From Janibacter cremeus (GTDB lineage Bacteria > Actinomycetota > Actinomycetes > Actinomycetales > Dermatophilaceae), in NCBI RefSeq assembly GCF_029395675.1, contig NZ_CP115184.1:620001-684000 (forward strand): a stretch of 64,000 nt of DNA. Direction: 5' to 3'. The notes beneath the pieces are model-generated. The model was not told the DNA's origin. It worked only from the letters and a program-made list of their open reading frames with translations, and searched no databases. Shown here piece after piece: positions 55,765-64,000 of the stretch (the stretch's first letter is position 1; each line of letters opens with the position of its first letter). A program made the translations under genes and the position numbers.

Positions 55765-57777
55765 ATGCTCAGCATCCTCGGTCCCATCGCCGTCGCGGCC
55801 GGTGTCGGGACGTCGGTCGTGGCGCTCGGGCTGTGGGTGATGGTCGCGCGCGGTCGCGCCAGCGCCCAGCCGCTGGCGGGCCTGATGATGGCGTTGTCCT
55901 TCATCGCAGCGCTCGCCGCCGCGGTCGTCATGGAGATCGCCTTGGTGACCAACGACTTCTCCGTGCGCTACGTCGCCGAGAACAGCGGCACGGCCGTGCC
56001 GCTCTACTACCGGATCACCGGCCTGTGGGCGGCGCTCGAGGGCTCCTTGCTCCTGTGGCTCGTGGTCCTCGCCGGCTACGGACTCGCCCTGGCGCGCCGT
56101 GCGCCCAGGGTGGCCGACCTGCACGCGTGGATGATGGCCACCTTCGCCAGCGTCATGGTCTTCTTCTTCGGTCTGGCGCTGTTCACCAGCTCGGCCTTCG
56201 GCAGGATGAGCCCCGTCCCCGCGGACGGCCCCGGCCCGAACCCGCTGCTGCAGGACCACCCGCTCATGGCCATCCACCCGCCCCTGCTGTACCTGGGCTA
56301 CGTCGGGCTGACCATCCCCTTCGCCTATGCGGTCGCCGCGCTGATCACCGGACGCACGGGACGGCAGTGGCTCGTCCCCCTTCGCCGGTGGACCCTCTTT
56401 GCCTGGACCTGCCTGACCATGGGCATCCTCATGGGGATGTGGTGGTCCTACGCCGTCCTCGGCTGGGGCGGCTACTGGGCCTGGGACCCGGTGGAGAACG
56501 CGTCCATCCTCCCGTGGTTCACCGCCACGGCTCTGATCCACTCCGTCATGGTGCAGGAGCGACGCCAGATCCTGGGGGTCTGGAACATCACCCTCGCCGC
56601 GGCGACGTTCGTCATGGTGCTCATCGGGACCTTCCTGACCCGCAGCGGCGTCGTCGCGAGCGTGCACGCCTTCACGGAGAGCACCATCGGGCCGGCGTTC
56701 CTGACGTACATCGCACTCGTCGTCCTCGCGGTCGTCAGCCTGCTCATCTGGCGCTCCGACCGCCTCGGGTCGCCCGGCGGCATCGAGGCCGTGCGCAGCC
56801 GTGAGGCGGTCCTGCTGGTCAACAACGTCCTCTTCGTCACCCTGGGCGTGACGGTCCTCATCGGCACGGTCTTCCCGCTGATCCGCGAAGCGGCCGGGGG
56901 AGGTCCCTCGAGCGTCGGCGCCCCCTTCTTCAACGACATCGTCGTCCCGATCGCCCTGCTGGTCATCGTGCTCATGGGGATCGGGCCCCTCGTGCCCTGG
57001 GGCGGTGTGGAGCGCCAGCAGGTCGTCGACCTCCTGCGCACTCCCGCCGTCGTGGGCCTGGTGGTCGTCGCCGCGACCGCCTTCCTCGTCGGTGGCGGGA
57101 TCGGTGCCAGCCTGGGCTACGGCGCCGTCGCCTTCGCCGTGACGGCCCTCGGCGTCCTGCTGGCCCGCGACGTCCGCACGGCCCGTCGCTCCGGCGAGTC
57201 GCGCTGGCGGGCGGGCCGCCGCGTGCTGGTCACCCGCCGTCGCCGCTACGGCGGCATGCTCGTGCACGCCGGGATCTTCCTGGCCGTCGCCGCCGTCACG
57301 GCGTCCGGCACGCTCGAGCAGAGCCGCGAGGCGACCCTGGAGGTCGGGGAGTCGGTGAGCGTGGGCGGCTACACCGCCACCCTCACCGACATCACCCGGG
57401 AGCGCACCGACCGCTTCATGGTCATCGGTGCGCAGACCACCTTGACGAAGGGAGGGGGCACCCTGGGTGAGTACGCCCCCCAGATGCGCTTCTACCCGTC
57501 GATGAACGAAGCCATCGGCCGCCCGGCCATCCACAGCGACCTGCTGGCCGACGCCTACCTCACCGTCTCCTCGGCGGACTCGGACGCGCAGCAGGCCCAC
57601 GTGAAGATCGCCGTCACCCCCCTGGTGACCTGGCTGTGGCTCTCCGGTGGCGTGATCACCGCCGGCGCCCTCCTCGCCGCCTGGCCCTCCCGGGCCGAGC
57701 GTCGCACCCGTCGGCGCGAGGAGCGCGCGTCCACCCCGACCCCGGTCCCCGCCGGAGCGAAGGGCACCGATGACTGA
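55765..57777 (+). CDS. ccmF: Cytochrome c maturation haem lyase CcmF
   Basis: A 670-residue membrane protein of about fifteen helices. The WWD haem-binding region WGGYWAWDPVENASILPWF lies in the middle, with conserved histidines in LLQDHPLMAIHPPLLYLGYVG and in the segments after WWD. GTFLTRSGVVASVHAFT is also a family block. CcmF attaches haem to apocytochrome CxxCH motifs together with CcmH in maturation System I. Most actinomycetes use System II (ResB/CcsA) instead. First gene of a unit with the CcmG-like and CcmH genes. Confidence 0.93.
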   Translation: MLSILGPIAVAAGVGTSVVALGLWVMVARGRASAQPLAGLMMALSFIAALAAAVVMEIALVTNDFSVRYVAENSGTAVPLYYRITGLWAALEGSLLLWLVVLAGYGLALARRAPRVADLHAWMMATFASVMVFFFGLALFTSSAFGRMSPVPADGPGPNPLLQDHPLMAIHPPLLYLGYVGLTIPFAYAVAALITGRTGRQWLVPLRRWTLFAWTCLTMGILMGMWWSYAVLGWGGYWAWDPVENASILPWFTATALIHSVMVQERRQILGVWNITLAAATFVMVLIGTFLTRSGVVASVHAFTESTIGPAFLTYIALVVLAVVSLLIWRSDRLGSPGGIEAVRSREAVLLVNNVLFVTLGVTVLIGTVFPLIREAAGGGPSSVGAPFFNDIVVPIALLVIVLMGIGPLVPWGGVERQQVVDLLRTPAVVGLVVVAATAFLVGGGIGASLGYGAVAFAVTALGVLLARDVRTARRSGESRWRAGRRVLVTRRRRYGGMLVHAGIFLAVAAVTASGTLEQSREATLEVGESVSVGGYTATLTDITRERTDRFMVIGAQTTLTKGGGTLGEYAPQMRFYPSMNEAIGRPAIHSDLLADAYLTVSSADSDAQQAHVKIAVTPLVTWLWLSGGVITAGALLAAWPSRAERRTRRREERASTPTPVPAGAKGTDD

Positions 57778-58372
57778 GCCCAGGACGACCGAGCCGAGGA
57801 ACGAGCCCGCGCGCACCGACGCCGAGCCGGCCACCACCACGACCCGTCGCAAGGCGATCAAGGTCGCCGCGGCCGCGGCGATCATCGGAGGCGGCGCGTT
57901 CGCCGGGTACCGCACGCTGGAGGGTGACGCGCAGACCACACCGAACCTCGTCGTCGGTGAACCCGCCCCGGCGTTGTCCGGGCCCGAGCTGGACGGCGGG
58001 GAGGTCGCGCTGGCCGACTTCCGCGGGGACGTCGTCCTGGTCAACGTCTGGGCCTCGTGGTGCTACCCGTGCCGCGCGGAGTACCCCGTCCTCAAGGAGG
58101 CTGCCACCGCCCTCGGGCCACGCGGGCTCACCGTCCTGGGGATCAACACCCAGGACGGGATCGACGAGGCCCGTGAGTTCCTCGAGGAGCTCGGCGGGAA
58201 GGCCTACCCGAGCATCCGTGACCCCAACGGCCACATCGCCGTCGCCTGGGCGACCTCCGGGGTCCCGGAGACCTTCGTCATCGACCCGGAAGGTCGCGTG
58301 CGCGAACGACTCGTGGGGGAGGTGACCGGCCAGTGGGTGAGCGACAACGTCGTCCCGATGCTCGGCGACTGA
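57770..58372 (+). CDS. Thioredoxin-like CcmG/ResA-type thiol-disulfide oxidoreductase
   Basis: A 200-residue membrane-anchored thioredoxin. The N-terminal TTTRRKAIKVAAAAAIIGGG is an anchor with a possible Tat-like RR, followed by a periplasm-side domain with FRGDVVLVNVWASWCYPCRAEYP (active site CYPC), and VPETFVIDPEGRV carrying the cis-Pro region. It keeps apocytochrome cysteines reduced for haem attachment. Overlaps ccmF by 8 bp and ccmH by 40 bp. Confidence 0.9.
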   Translation: MTEPRTTEPRNEPARTDAEPATTTTRRKAIKVAAAAAIIGGGAFAGYRTLEGDAQTTPNLVVGEPAPALSGPELDGGEVALADFRGDVVLVNVWASWCYPCRAEYPVLKEAATALGPRGLTVLGINTQDGIDEAREFLEELGGKAYPSIRDPNGHIAVAWATSGVPETFVIDPEGRVRERLVGEVTGQWVSDNVVPMLGD

Positions 58373-63476: not shown

Positions 63477-63490
63477 CGAGGGAGGAAGCA

Positions 63491-64000
63491 ATGGACCGTC
63501 GACAGCTGCTCTTCGGTGGCGCGAGCGTCATCGGCTTGTCAGCCCTGGCAGGCTGCTCGTCCGGCCTGGGTGAGCAGAGCGCCCAGGCCGCGAGCAAGAA
63601 ACTCATCACGGCGGCCGACCTGAAGATGGAGGTCGGTACCCCCTACCCCTTGGTCTCCCTGCCGGGGAAGAAGCCGATGGGGCAGGTCTACGACCGCCCG
63701 CCGAACTACGAGACGCCCGCCGAGAAGCTCATCGGTGAGAAGAACTATCCGTACACGGACAACGACTACTACTACGTGCGCTACCGCGAGGCGGACGTGC
63801 TCGAGGTGGACCCGAAGGACTACACCCTCAAGATCGGTGGCGACGCCGCGCACAACGAGGTGACCTTCACCTACGAGGAGCTGCTGGCGCGCTCCTCGAC
63901 GACCGTCGGAGCCGTGGGCATGTGCTCCGGTCAGGGCCGCGGCCTGCACCACCCGATGATCCCCGGCATGCCGTGGACGAAGGGGGACCTCTCGGCCGCC
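63491..64000 (+). CDS. Sulfite-oxidase-family molybdopterin oxidoreductase, N-terminal part (cut by window edge)
   Basis: About 170 residues are present. The N-terminus DRRQLLFGGASVIGLSALAGC combines a Tat-like RR with a lipobox-like Cys. Near the edge, VGMCSGQGRGLHHPMIPGMPW aligns with the CAGN(G)R...PGxxW block of the sulfite oxidase family, with the Mo-ligand cysteine. GGAGGAAGCA precedes the ATG. Fourteen bp after the three-haem cytochrome stop, so it could feed electrons from sulfite or another substrate into that cytochrome and the cbb3 oxidase. The C-terminal domain is outside the window. Confidence 0.8.
   Translation, partial: MDRRQLLFGGASVIGLSALAGCSSGLGEQSAQAASKKLITAADLKMEVGTPYPLVSLPGKKPMGQVYDRPPNYETPAEKLIGEKNYPYTDNDYYYVRYREADVLEVDPKDYTLKIGGDAAHNEVTFTYEELLARSSTTVGAVGMCSGQGRGLHHPMIPGMPWTKGDLSAA

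Follow-up and report, generated by a model that had tools for sequence, protein, structure and literature searches.

The chromosome of Janibacter cremeus carries, at genome positions 675765-687791, a respiratory gene island read from one strand, which open reading frames and Pfam matches trace from inside the analysed window (64,000 nucleotides, genome positions 620,001 to 684,000) to beyond its end. We propose that it is probably a self-sufficient, horizontally moving island of some actinobacteria, in which a molybdenum (Mo) enzyme would deliver electrons through a monohaem cytochrome to a C-family haem-copper oxidase, with System I cytochrome c maturation genes of its own.

Gene content and oxidase of the island

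The genes follow one another in the order ccmF-ccmG-ccmH-cupredoxin-small membrane gene-ccoN-ccoO-ccoQ-like-trihaem ccoP-Mo enzyme-monohaem cytochrome-ccmA-B-C-D-E. The window holds the following part, in which L031, L032 and L166 are the loci of three other islands, L166 being that of Nocardioides dokdonensis.

55765..57777, + strand, ccmF, System I haem lyase subunit (Pfam CcmF_C 189.7 bits, Cytochrom_C_asm above cut-off; WGGYWAWDP)
57770..58372, + strand, ccmG-like thioredoxin with motif CYPC (AhpC-TSA/Redoxin above cut-off; CxxC in 4/4 islands)
58333..59265, + strand, ccmH with a CcmI-like C-terminal part, LRCPTC (Pfam CcmH 84.5 bits, cut-off 25; four-island alignment)
59377..59829, + strand, cupredoxin lipoprotein (Pfam Copper-bind 25.3 bits, cut-off 21.2)
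59826..60005, + strand, 59-residue single-helix membrane peptide (C-terminal pattern also present at this position in L031, L032 and L166)
60002..61510, + strand, ccoN, divergent C-family haem-copper oxidase subunit I (COX1 200.5 bits; His/Tyr alignment; tree)
61503..62102, + strand, ccoO, monohaem subunit (FixO 142.8 bits; CAYCH and MP(S/G/A)YPW in 4/4 islands)
62104..62301, + strand, ccoQ-like 65-residue membrane peptide (42, 57 and 48% identity in L031, L032 and L166, respectively)
62298..63476, + strand, trihaem ccoP-like cytochrome c (three Cytochrome_CBB3 stretches; three CxxCH)
63473..64000, + strand, first part of a sulfite-oxidase-family Mo enzyme without the catalytic Tyr (gene end at genome 684696, 696 bases beyond the window)

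Every ccm, cupredoxin, cco, trihaem cytochrome and Mo-enzyme gene named in a sequence-only reading of this DNA is thus present, on the plus strand and tightly packed; that reading had not listed the 59-residue peptide, whose gene overlaps those of the cupredoxin and ccoN and whose WPP...LF...P.(T/A)WWA pattern recurs in the three other islands. Downstream of the window lie genes for a monohaem SorB-like cytochrome, CcmA, CcmB, CcmC, a CcmD-like peptide, CcmE, CcdA and an ArsR-rhodanese protein. The gene order is common to all four islands read (the window's and those of Nocardioides dokdonensis, UBA4001 and a groundwater MAG), and this identity together with the HMM scores rules out a chance arrangement.

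The ccoN gene begins with a GTG that overlaps the stop of the preceding gene. Six His residues and a Tyr, which we take to be the haem and CuB ligands and the active-site Tyr, are invariant in its product and throughout the alignment (20/20 sequences). The proteins nevertheless fall below the cut-offs of the corresponding curated NCBIfam models: ccoN 161.1 bits (583.15), ccoO 125 (200.65) and ccoP 104.4 (179.95). Because CcoN stays so far under its cut-off, the island oxidase is, as judged from sequence, a member of a divergent C-family clade and not a canonical cbb3 enzyme; the earlier assignment to cbb3 oxidases stands for the family, with its invariant His and Tyr residues, and falls for the canonical type. 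Compared with the cbb3 oxidase CcoNOP of Pseudomonas stutzeri (PDB 3mk7, whose chain A was aligned with CcoN, and 5djq), the island enzyme is alike in CcoN sequence, the six His and Tyr, the monohaem CcoO and the CcoP-type domains, and differs in its scores below the curated cut-offs, in a CcoP with three haem domains and possibly in CcoS. The latter was not found when the whole genome was searched with PF03597 (only 44 positions) at E 0.001, a search that matched 2 of 14 control genomes, one of them above the cut-off. The distance from canonical CcoN, and the other ccoN-like copies of loci L054 and L070, which match the window CcoN at 24-28%, could suit a nitric-oxide reductase instead of an O2 reductase, but the C-family active-site Tyr is invariant and CcoO and CcoP are present; we judge this reading very improbable, chiefly on the invariant Tyr.

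The trihaem cytochrome matches CcoP models and the CcoP chains of solved cbb3 oxidases, and its three CxxCH motifs lie in three mutually similar domains (34-36% pairwise identity). Its most likely identity is CcoP of the island oxidase, a reassignment from these matches that keeps the three haems of the earlier description as a trihaem cytochrome. Neisseria CcoP is also reported to be tri-haem, by fusion with cytochrome c5 (PMC2924362); a third haem-c domain is shared with it, whereas the island protein consists of three similar domains and belongs to an unrelated clade. The nearest relatives outside the islands (42-52% identity) are fused or split CcoN-CcoO-CcoP proteins of Acidobacteriota, Planctomycetota, Melainabacteria and Pseudomonadota, which mostly have three haem-c motifs in their fused or CcoO-P protein as against four in the island CcoO and CcoP. 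The CcoQ-like peptide had no match in a Pfam search.

Cytochrome c maturation

Gram-positive hosts normally use a maturation system other than System I. CcmA, CcmB, CcmC, CcmE, CcmF and CcmH are each present in the island, whose proteins exceed the cut-offs of the Pfam models CcmB, CcmE, CcmH, CcmF_C, Cytochrom_C_asm and ABC_tran; the curated ccmC model gave CcmC 159 bits against a cut-off of 186. We take the diagnostic motifs to be the haem-binding His of CcmE, the WWD stretches of CcmC and CcmF, LRCxxC of CcmH and CxxC of CcmG. Alignment shows CcmE KHDNEY, KHSNEY or KHDNQY, CcmH LRCPTC and CcmG WCxPC in all four islands, and the WWD stretches of the J. cremeus proteins read WGGYWAWDP (CcmF) and WGTFWTWDP. 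By eye, a frame of 27 residues with a single helix, lying between the ccmC and ccmE genes, resembles CcmD (the three other islands have similar frames, partly cut by the DNA stretch compared), and the C-terminus of CcmH resembles CcmI.

The island thus shares CcmA, B, C, E, F, G and H and their diagnostic motifs with System I (CcmA-H), the CcmD-like peptide being a candidate CcmD, and the System I set suspected from the window is completed within the block and just downstream, CcmABCE being present in the genome. It differs from System I in being built around an oxidase/Mo operon and in sharing a genome with two System II loci. J. cremeus also has an aa3 oxidase. Since both System II and aa3 are retained, the island's System I is an addition to the host's System II; the "alternative" chain of the sequence-only reading would come on top of the usual equipment. 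We infer that System I loads haem onto the island's own cytochromes.

The molybdenum enzyme and its electron donor

The Mo enzyme carries by eye a Tat-like signal with a lipobox, and a predicted structure model shows a sulfite-oxidase fold. Its closest solved relative by both sequence and fold is the sulfite dehydrogenase SorA of Starkeya novella, yet the pair misses the curated cut-offs, with 265.9 bits (600) for SorA and, for the adjacent monohaem cytochrome, 61.5 (93) for SorB. The candidate for the second Mo-enzyme subunit sought past position 64000 is this SorB-like cytochrome next to the Mo gene, below the threshold for SorB proper. Within a sample of the phylum, 171 of 396 genomes had some match to the Mo enzyme; among the matches listed, none from outside the window exceeded 128.8 bits or 40% identity.

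The catalytic site places the enzyme in a distinct subfamily. At the positions of Tyr322 and His140 of the chicken enzyme, the loop bearing the catalytic Tyr is missing and Arg replaces its His partner in 59/59 members, whereas both are present in 83/83 relatives; these 142 rows include no intermediates, and the loop measures 23-24 residues in the subfamily against 41-45 in the relatives. A conserved Asn is lost together with the other two features in all 59. Set against SorAB of S. novella (PDB 2blf), the island enzyme has the Tyr236 loop deleted, His57 changed to Arg and Asn107 to Gln. The first substrate Arg (Arg103) and the Trp (Trp168) are kept in 59/59 members and the Mo-ligand Cys (Cys151) in all 72 rows of a further alignment (A3); 12/59 lack the second substrate Arg as well. 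The subfamily forms a separate branch of the tree (support 100) and varies at positions that are invariant in the relatives. Two of its rows carry the names Deinococcus aluminii (P0148) and Paraconexibacter (P0156).

Loci of the wider CcoN clade (80 kept of 164 confirmed) bear on the donor. Of the other loci, 67 extend far enough upstream to be judged. In 20 of these, from Planctomycetota, Acidobacteriota, Melainabacteria/Cyanobacteriota and Pseudomonadota, CcoN stands directly behind sorA-sorB; sorAB is not in that position in the remaining 47. A metallo-beta-lactamase/rhodanese gene lies nearby in 7 of the 20 sorAB-linked loci against 1 of the 58 remaining loci, so that sulfite is supported as the donor in the sorAB-linked loci; one of them, that of Pseudomonas spelaei (L045), has ccmC-E-F-G-H behind CcoN. 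No relative of the metallo-beta-lactamase/rhodanese gene turned up in the sequence examined around the four islands. SorA of the wider loci has an intact sulfite site, in contrast to the altered island enzyme, and sorAB precede ccoN there whereas the Mo and cytochrome genes follow the oxidase in the islands; given this difference in order, the partnership of Mo enzyme and oxidase may have arisen twice.

The island could accordingly encode an ordinary SorAB-cbb3 sulfite chain in which the Tyr/His pair is dispensable and sulfite is oxidised with altered kinetics. The kinship with S. novella SorA, the retained Arg, Trp and Cys, the intact SorAB of the wider clade and the ArsR-rhodanese gene downstream of the window's island agree with such a chain, but the joint loss of Tyr loop, His and Asn, the loss of the second Arg in some members and the score far below the SorA cut-off do not, and we give it somewhat less than an even chance. 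Alternatively, the altered site could belong to a new respiratory Mo dehydrogenase whose substrate is not sulfite and whose pocket has two Arg residues where the relatives have the Tyr/His relay. The sharp 59 to 83 split, the well-supported branch and the variability at otherwise invariant positions argue for this reading, against which stand a gene neighbourhood that offers no substrate candidate and a SorAB-like partner cytochrome and fold; we give it about the same chance as the ordinary sulfite chain. Because the island enzyme belongs to a separate Tyr-less subfamily, sulfite is a plausible rather than an established donor, and the earlier suggestion of sulfite keeps the predicted fold in its favour, with the failed SorA cut-off and the missing Tyr/His pair against it. 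The substrate may be something new.

A further entry route may be offered by the cupredoxin, a lipoprotein by its lipobox (seen by eye), whose type-1 copper ligands (His, Cys, His, Met) are apparently complete and whose ligand motif recurs in 4/4 islands. The host quinol chain might feed a high-affinity oxidase mainly through this protein, leaving the Mo enzyme a side activity in detoxification or repair. We consider this unlikely, as in all four islands the Mo and cytochrome genes are flanked by the oxidase genes on one side and ccm genes on the other.

In the pathway that we favour, the exported, lipid-anchored Mo enzyme would oxidise a substrate outside the cytoplasm and pass the two electrons gained to the membrane-anchored monohaem cytochrome. 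Despite the remodelled reaction centre, sulfite or another sulfur oxyanion is the most likely substrate. From this cytochrome the electrons would travel through the trihaem CcoP, the blue copper lipoprotein or both to CcoO, and on to the haem b and haem b3-CuB centre of the divergent oxidase, where O2 would be reduced. System I would be carried along because the five haem-c sites need a loading machine and may be served poorly or not at all by the host's System II. A bolder version, which we advance only tentatively, is a new class of respiratory Mo dehydrogenase in which a second Arg replaces the Tyr/His relay and which would oxidise an extracytoplasmic substrate of a new kind; it would drive a dedicated C-family oxidase with four haem-c domains in actinobacteria and spread, with System I, as a 15-16-gene island into System II hosts.

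Distribution and significance

The block was not found in ordinary relatives: apart from one weak partial match in a congener, CcoN was absent from 57 other genomes of the genus, family and order, and CcmH from the 15 congeners searched. In a quick CcoN tree with SH-aLRT support only and long branches flagged, the window CcoN falls inside a group of 19 rows (support 99); those of them that bear names, on which the label rests, are all actinobacterial, and Pseudomonadota rows lie elsewhere. On this placement among the named rows of a quick tree, we reject a recent gift from Proteobacteria. Of the suggestion that the chain is "transferred or ancient", transfer among actinobacteria and ancient origin are both compatible with the tree, and both words can apply.

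No compositional sign of transfer was seen (G+C 0.668-0.745 in 1-kb windows of the island, 0.618-0.720 in the flanks), so the case for transfer comes entirely from distribution. The hydrolase gene before ccmF has 85% identity in one congener (G003), where the sequence past the hydrolase differs, and another (G007) is rearranged; the insertion site is thus partly resolved, on its left side. Among 72,556 plasmid records no close relative of the island was found: 49 held relatives of CcoN (E <=1e-50) and 46 of the Mo enzyme (E <=1e-30), and none of them reached 60% identity; among the 15 listed for each protein, the highest values were 47.8% and 36.5%, respectively. Searches of an open-access library listed no paper that describes the gene cluster in its title or abstract opening, and we do not claim that it is unpublished.

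If the proposal is true, an entire extracytoplasmic c-type chain and its maturation system would be able to travel together between Gram-positive hosts. The analysis also sets apart a Mo-enzyme subfamily whose changed reaction centre can be tested. In several phyla it connects sulfite dehydrogenases with a widespread, divergent clade of C-family oxidases, a link of interest for the question of which organisms oxidise sulfite at low oxygen. J. cremeus itself is a natural example of a cell equipped with both System I and System II.

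Gene layout and cytochrome c maturation

The block of cbb3 oxidase, System I and Mo-enzyme genes noticed in the sequence-only reading is real and complete. The host genome is a single contig of 3,495,359 bases (completeness 100), in which the window occupies positions 620001-684000 and genome positions 640001-724000 were examined around the island. The island starts 152 bases 3' of an alpha/beta-hydrolase gene (window 54692-55612) and runs beyond the window end, with overlaps of a few bases between most adjacent genes. Judged from the sequence, the best ccoN start is GTG 60002, overlapping the stop of a small peptide gene newly recognized here.

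Genes of the island in order (coordinates above 684000 are genome coordinates, beyond the window end)
First three genes, + strand: ccmF, ccmG-like, then ccmH, whose C-terminal extension is CcmI-like by eye
Between ccmH and ccoN, + strand: cupredoxin, then the 59-residue one-helix peptide
Consecutive, + strand: ccoN, ccoO, ccoQ-like peptide, trihaem CcoP-like cytochrome
683473-684696, + strand: sulfite-oxidase-family Mo enzyme
684693-685205, + strand: membrane-anchored monohaem cytochrome
685202-685867, + strand: ccmA
685864-686511, + strand: ccmB
686519-687259, + strand: ccmC
687256-687339, + strand: CcmD-like peptide, 27 residues
Likely start 687339, end 687791, + strand: ccmE
687788-688549, + strand: ccdA
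688619-689290, + strand: ArsR-rhodanese protein

About 3 kb past the ArsR-rhodanese gene lies an IS3-like two-ORF transposase, recognized by eye (genome 692156-693384, locus L004), around which G+C drops from about 0.72 to 0.62-0.65 across windows 691000 to 695000.

The System I set is complete. The haem-binding His of CcmE is retained within KHDNEY, CcmH keeps LRCPTC, CcmG keeps CYPC, and CcmF and CcmC keep their WWD stretches. The genome also carries two System II (ResB/CcsA) loci, and its aa3 oxidase scores 959.9 bits, above the actinobacterial aa3 cut-off of 880; the island is therefore an added chain. At the second System II locus (L175, genome 556001-574000; ResB match 564488-565915), the neighboring ORFs appear by eye to encode a copper ATPase fragment, a DsbA-like protein, an IS3-type transposase and a Tat-exported oxidase. 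System II is also described for Corynebacterium glutamicum in PMC9145763, which agrees with the premise that most actinomycetes use it.

System I in the class is rare, yet not unknown: CcmH exceeds its cut-off in 6 of 394 genomes, one of them the host genome itself, and CcmF relatives of 49-54% identity occur in Blastococcus, Modestobacter, Geodermatophilus and Nocardiopsis among 120 listed of 7,996 matches. One of the five other CcmH carriers above cut-off (G791, read as Nocardioides dokdonensis) has this island, and the 20-kb regions surrounding the remaining four yielded no Mo-enzyme relative next to their ccm genes. Two loci from other actinomycetes (L167 and L168, in genomes G728 and G610) carry ccmC-E-F-G-H and a cupredoxin gene in the vicinity of weak matches to CcoN/CcoO/CcoP (25-29%), and may represent another kind of System I oxidase island.

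The oxidase and its distribution

All 20 CcoN rows share the six His and the Tyr on which a C-family O2 reductase depends, and these residues align with P. stutzeri CcoN. On the curated ccoN model the window CcoN scores 161.1 bits (cut-off 583.15); its closest row is one metagenome protein at 72% identity, the 18 others in the alignment ranging from 47 to 61%. Genomes were scanned with two peptide patterns of this clade, which places canonical cbb3 outside the sample, and the best 80 of 164 confirmed loci were kept. In a 65-row tree, one long branch (support 100) separates 57 rows from eight distant ones that belong to the same phylum; among the 57, the 19 rows that include the window's CcoN form a set with support 99, in a tree whose long branches were flagged by the program. 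The wider clade mostly has CcoN-CcoO-CcoP or CcoO-CcoP fusions, in which the fused product usually bears three CxxCH motifs, whereas the split-gene islands have one CxxCH in CcoO and three in CcoP, as counted in the window, L031 (Nocardioidaceae UBA4001) and L032 (a groundwater Actinomycetota MAG). Compared with one another, the three domains of CcoP show 34-36% identity. Neisseria also has a tri-haem CcoP (PMC2924362), which arose by another route. CcoS was not found; the model is short, so this is weak evidence of its absence. Relatives of this CcoN clade (47.8%) also lie on plasmids H20-H22 (26-87 kb) of Komagataeibacter and Acetobacter.

Across 58 genomes of the genus, family and order, CcoN has no match beyond its own genome save a partial one in a congener (E 5.3e-5, 83 residues), and CcmH has none outside its own genome among 16 genus genomes. 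In the phylum sample, 16 of 396 genomes, its own included, have CcoN at E of at most 1e-10, the 15 others all coming from outside the class and being at most 36% identical; in Nocardioidaceae it occurs in 2 of 294 genomes at 60-61% identity. The order ccmF-G-H-cupredoxin-ccoN-O-Q-P-Mo-monohaem-ccmA-B-C-E is identical in the window, L031, L032 and L166 (the G791 island). Neither ccdA nor the ArsR-rhodanese gene was found in the DNA read for the latter three (L032 ends about 1.5 kb past ccmE), so we leave them out of the core. In Streptomyces caeni, relatives of CcoN and CcmF apparently share one contig, which suggests that it may carry the island.

The earlier proposal that the block was transferred was largely right, since the island is present in 1 of 16 genus genomes, has the same order in distant actinobacteria, and the sequence past its left neighbor gene differs in both congeners read. 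Its base composition is not unusual, and we read it as having moved among high-G+C actinobacteria and not from Proteobacteria.

Sulfite as a possible electron donor

Seventy-eight loci besides L031 and L032 were considered, among them L085, an Acidimicrobiia MAG and hence Actinomycetota; 11 with less than 3 kb 5' of ccoN were set aside, leaving 67. In 20 of these, sorA-sorB stand in that order immediately 5' of ccoN; by record title or lineage they belong to Planctomycetota, Acidobacteriota, Melainabacteria/Cyanobacteriota and Pseudomonadota, and their SorA contains the Tyr loop together with VRWH and CSGN(S/A)R, two motifs of the sulfite site. L084, outside the 20, has a Mo gene of another type. 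The sulfite donor raised in the sequence-only reading has good support in part of the wider oxidase clade and is a plausible candidate for this island's oxidase.

In 7 of the 20 sorA-sorB loci a protein that combines metallo-beta-lactamase and rhodanese domains (checked by Pfam in two cases) is encoded 5', against 1 of the 58 remaining loci, whose flanks differ in length. The seven (L041, L042, L057, L069, L078, L093 and L047) comprise six Melainabacteria/Cyanobacteriota and one Gemmataceae, and in six the gene lies about 130 bases or less from the sorA match. From its domain architecture we read this protein as a persulfide dioxygenase; a chain from persulfide to sulfite, SorAB, the oxidase and oxygen is possible in these loci and would make sense. 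A cbb3-type terminal oxidase is predicted for the melainabacterium Obscuribacter in PMC4040986, where "sulfite" is absent from the main text. Pseudomonas spelaei (L045) has the order sorA-sorB-ccoN-ccoOP-ccmC-E-F-G-H, so that an oxidase/Mo/System I package formed there too, as a proteobacterial counterpart.

The island's own Mo enzyme, with a Tat-like signal and lipobox by eye, would pass electrons from its substrate to the monohaem cytochrome, and from there they may flow through the trihaem CcoP and/or the cupredoxin to CcoO, CcoN and O2. The five haem-c sites (1 + 3 + 1 CxxCH) would receive their haem from the System I that the island itself encodes. The non-core ArsR-rhodanese protein, above cut-off on a metalloregulator model and with a weak BigR match (42 bits, cut-off 155), hints at sulfur-responsive control.

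Two further CcoN rows (P0023 and P0026) are apparently paired in shared contigs with Mo enzymes of the subfamily without the catalytic-Tyr loop (P0142 and P0144); if the pairing holds, the two proteins are coupled in a second lineage as well, beyond the main island set. Because P0144 was left out of the Mo tree and branching near the main set is poorly or weakly resolved in CcoN and Mo trees alike, long joint descent of the pair is offered as a suggestion. The island itself is a real, complete and sporadic respiratory island, its parts known and its variant new.
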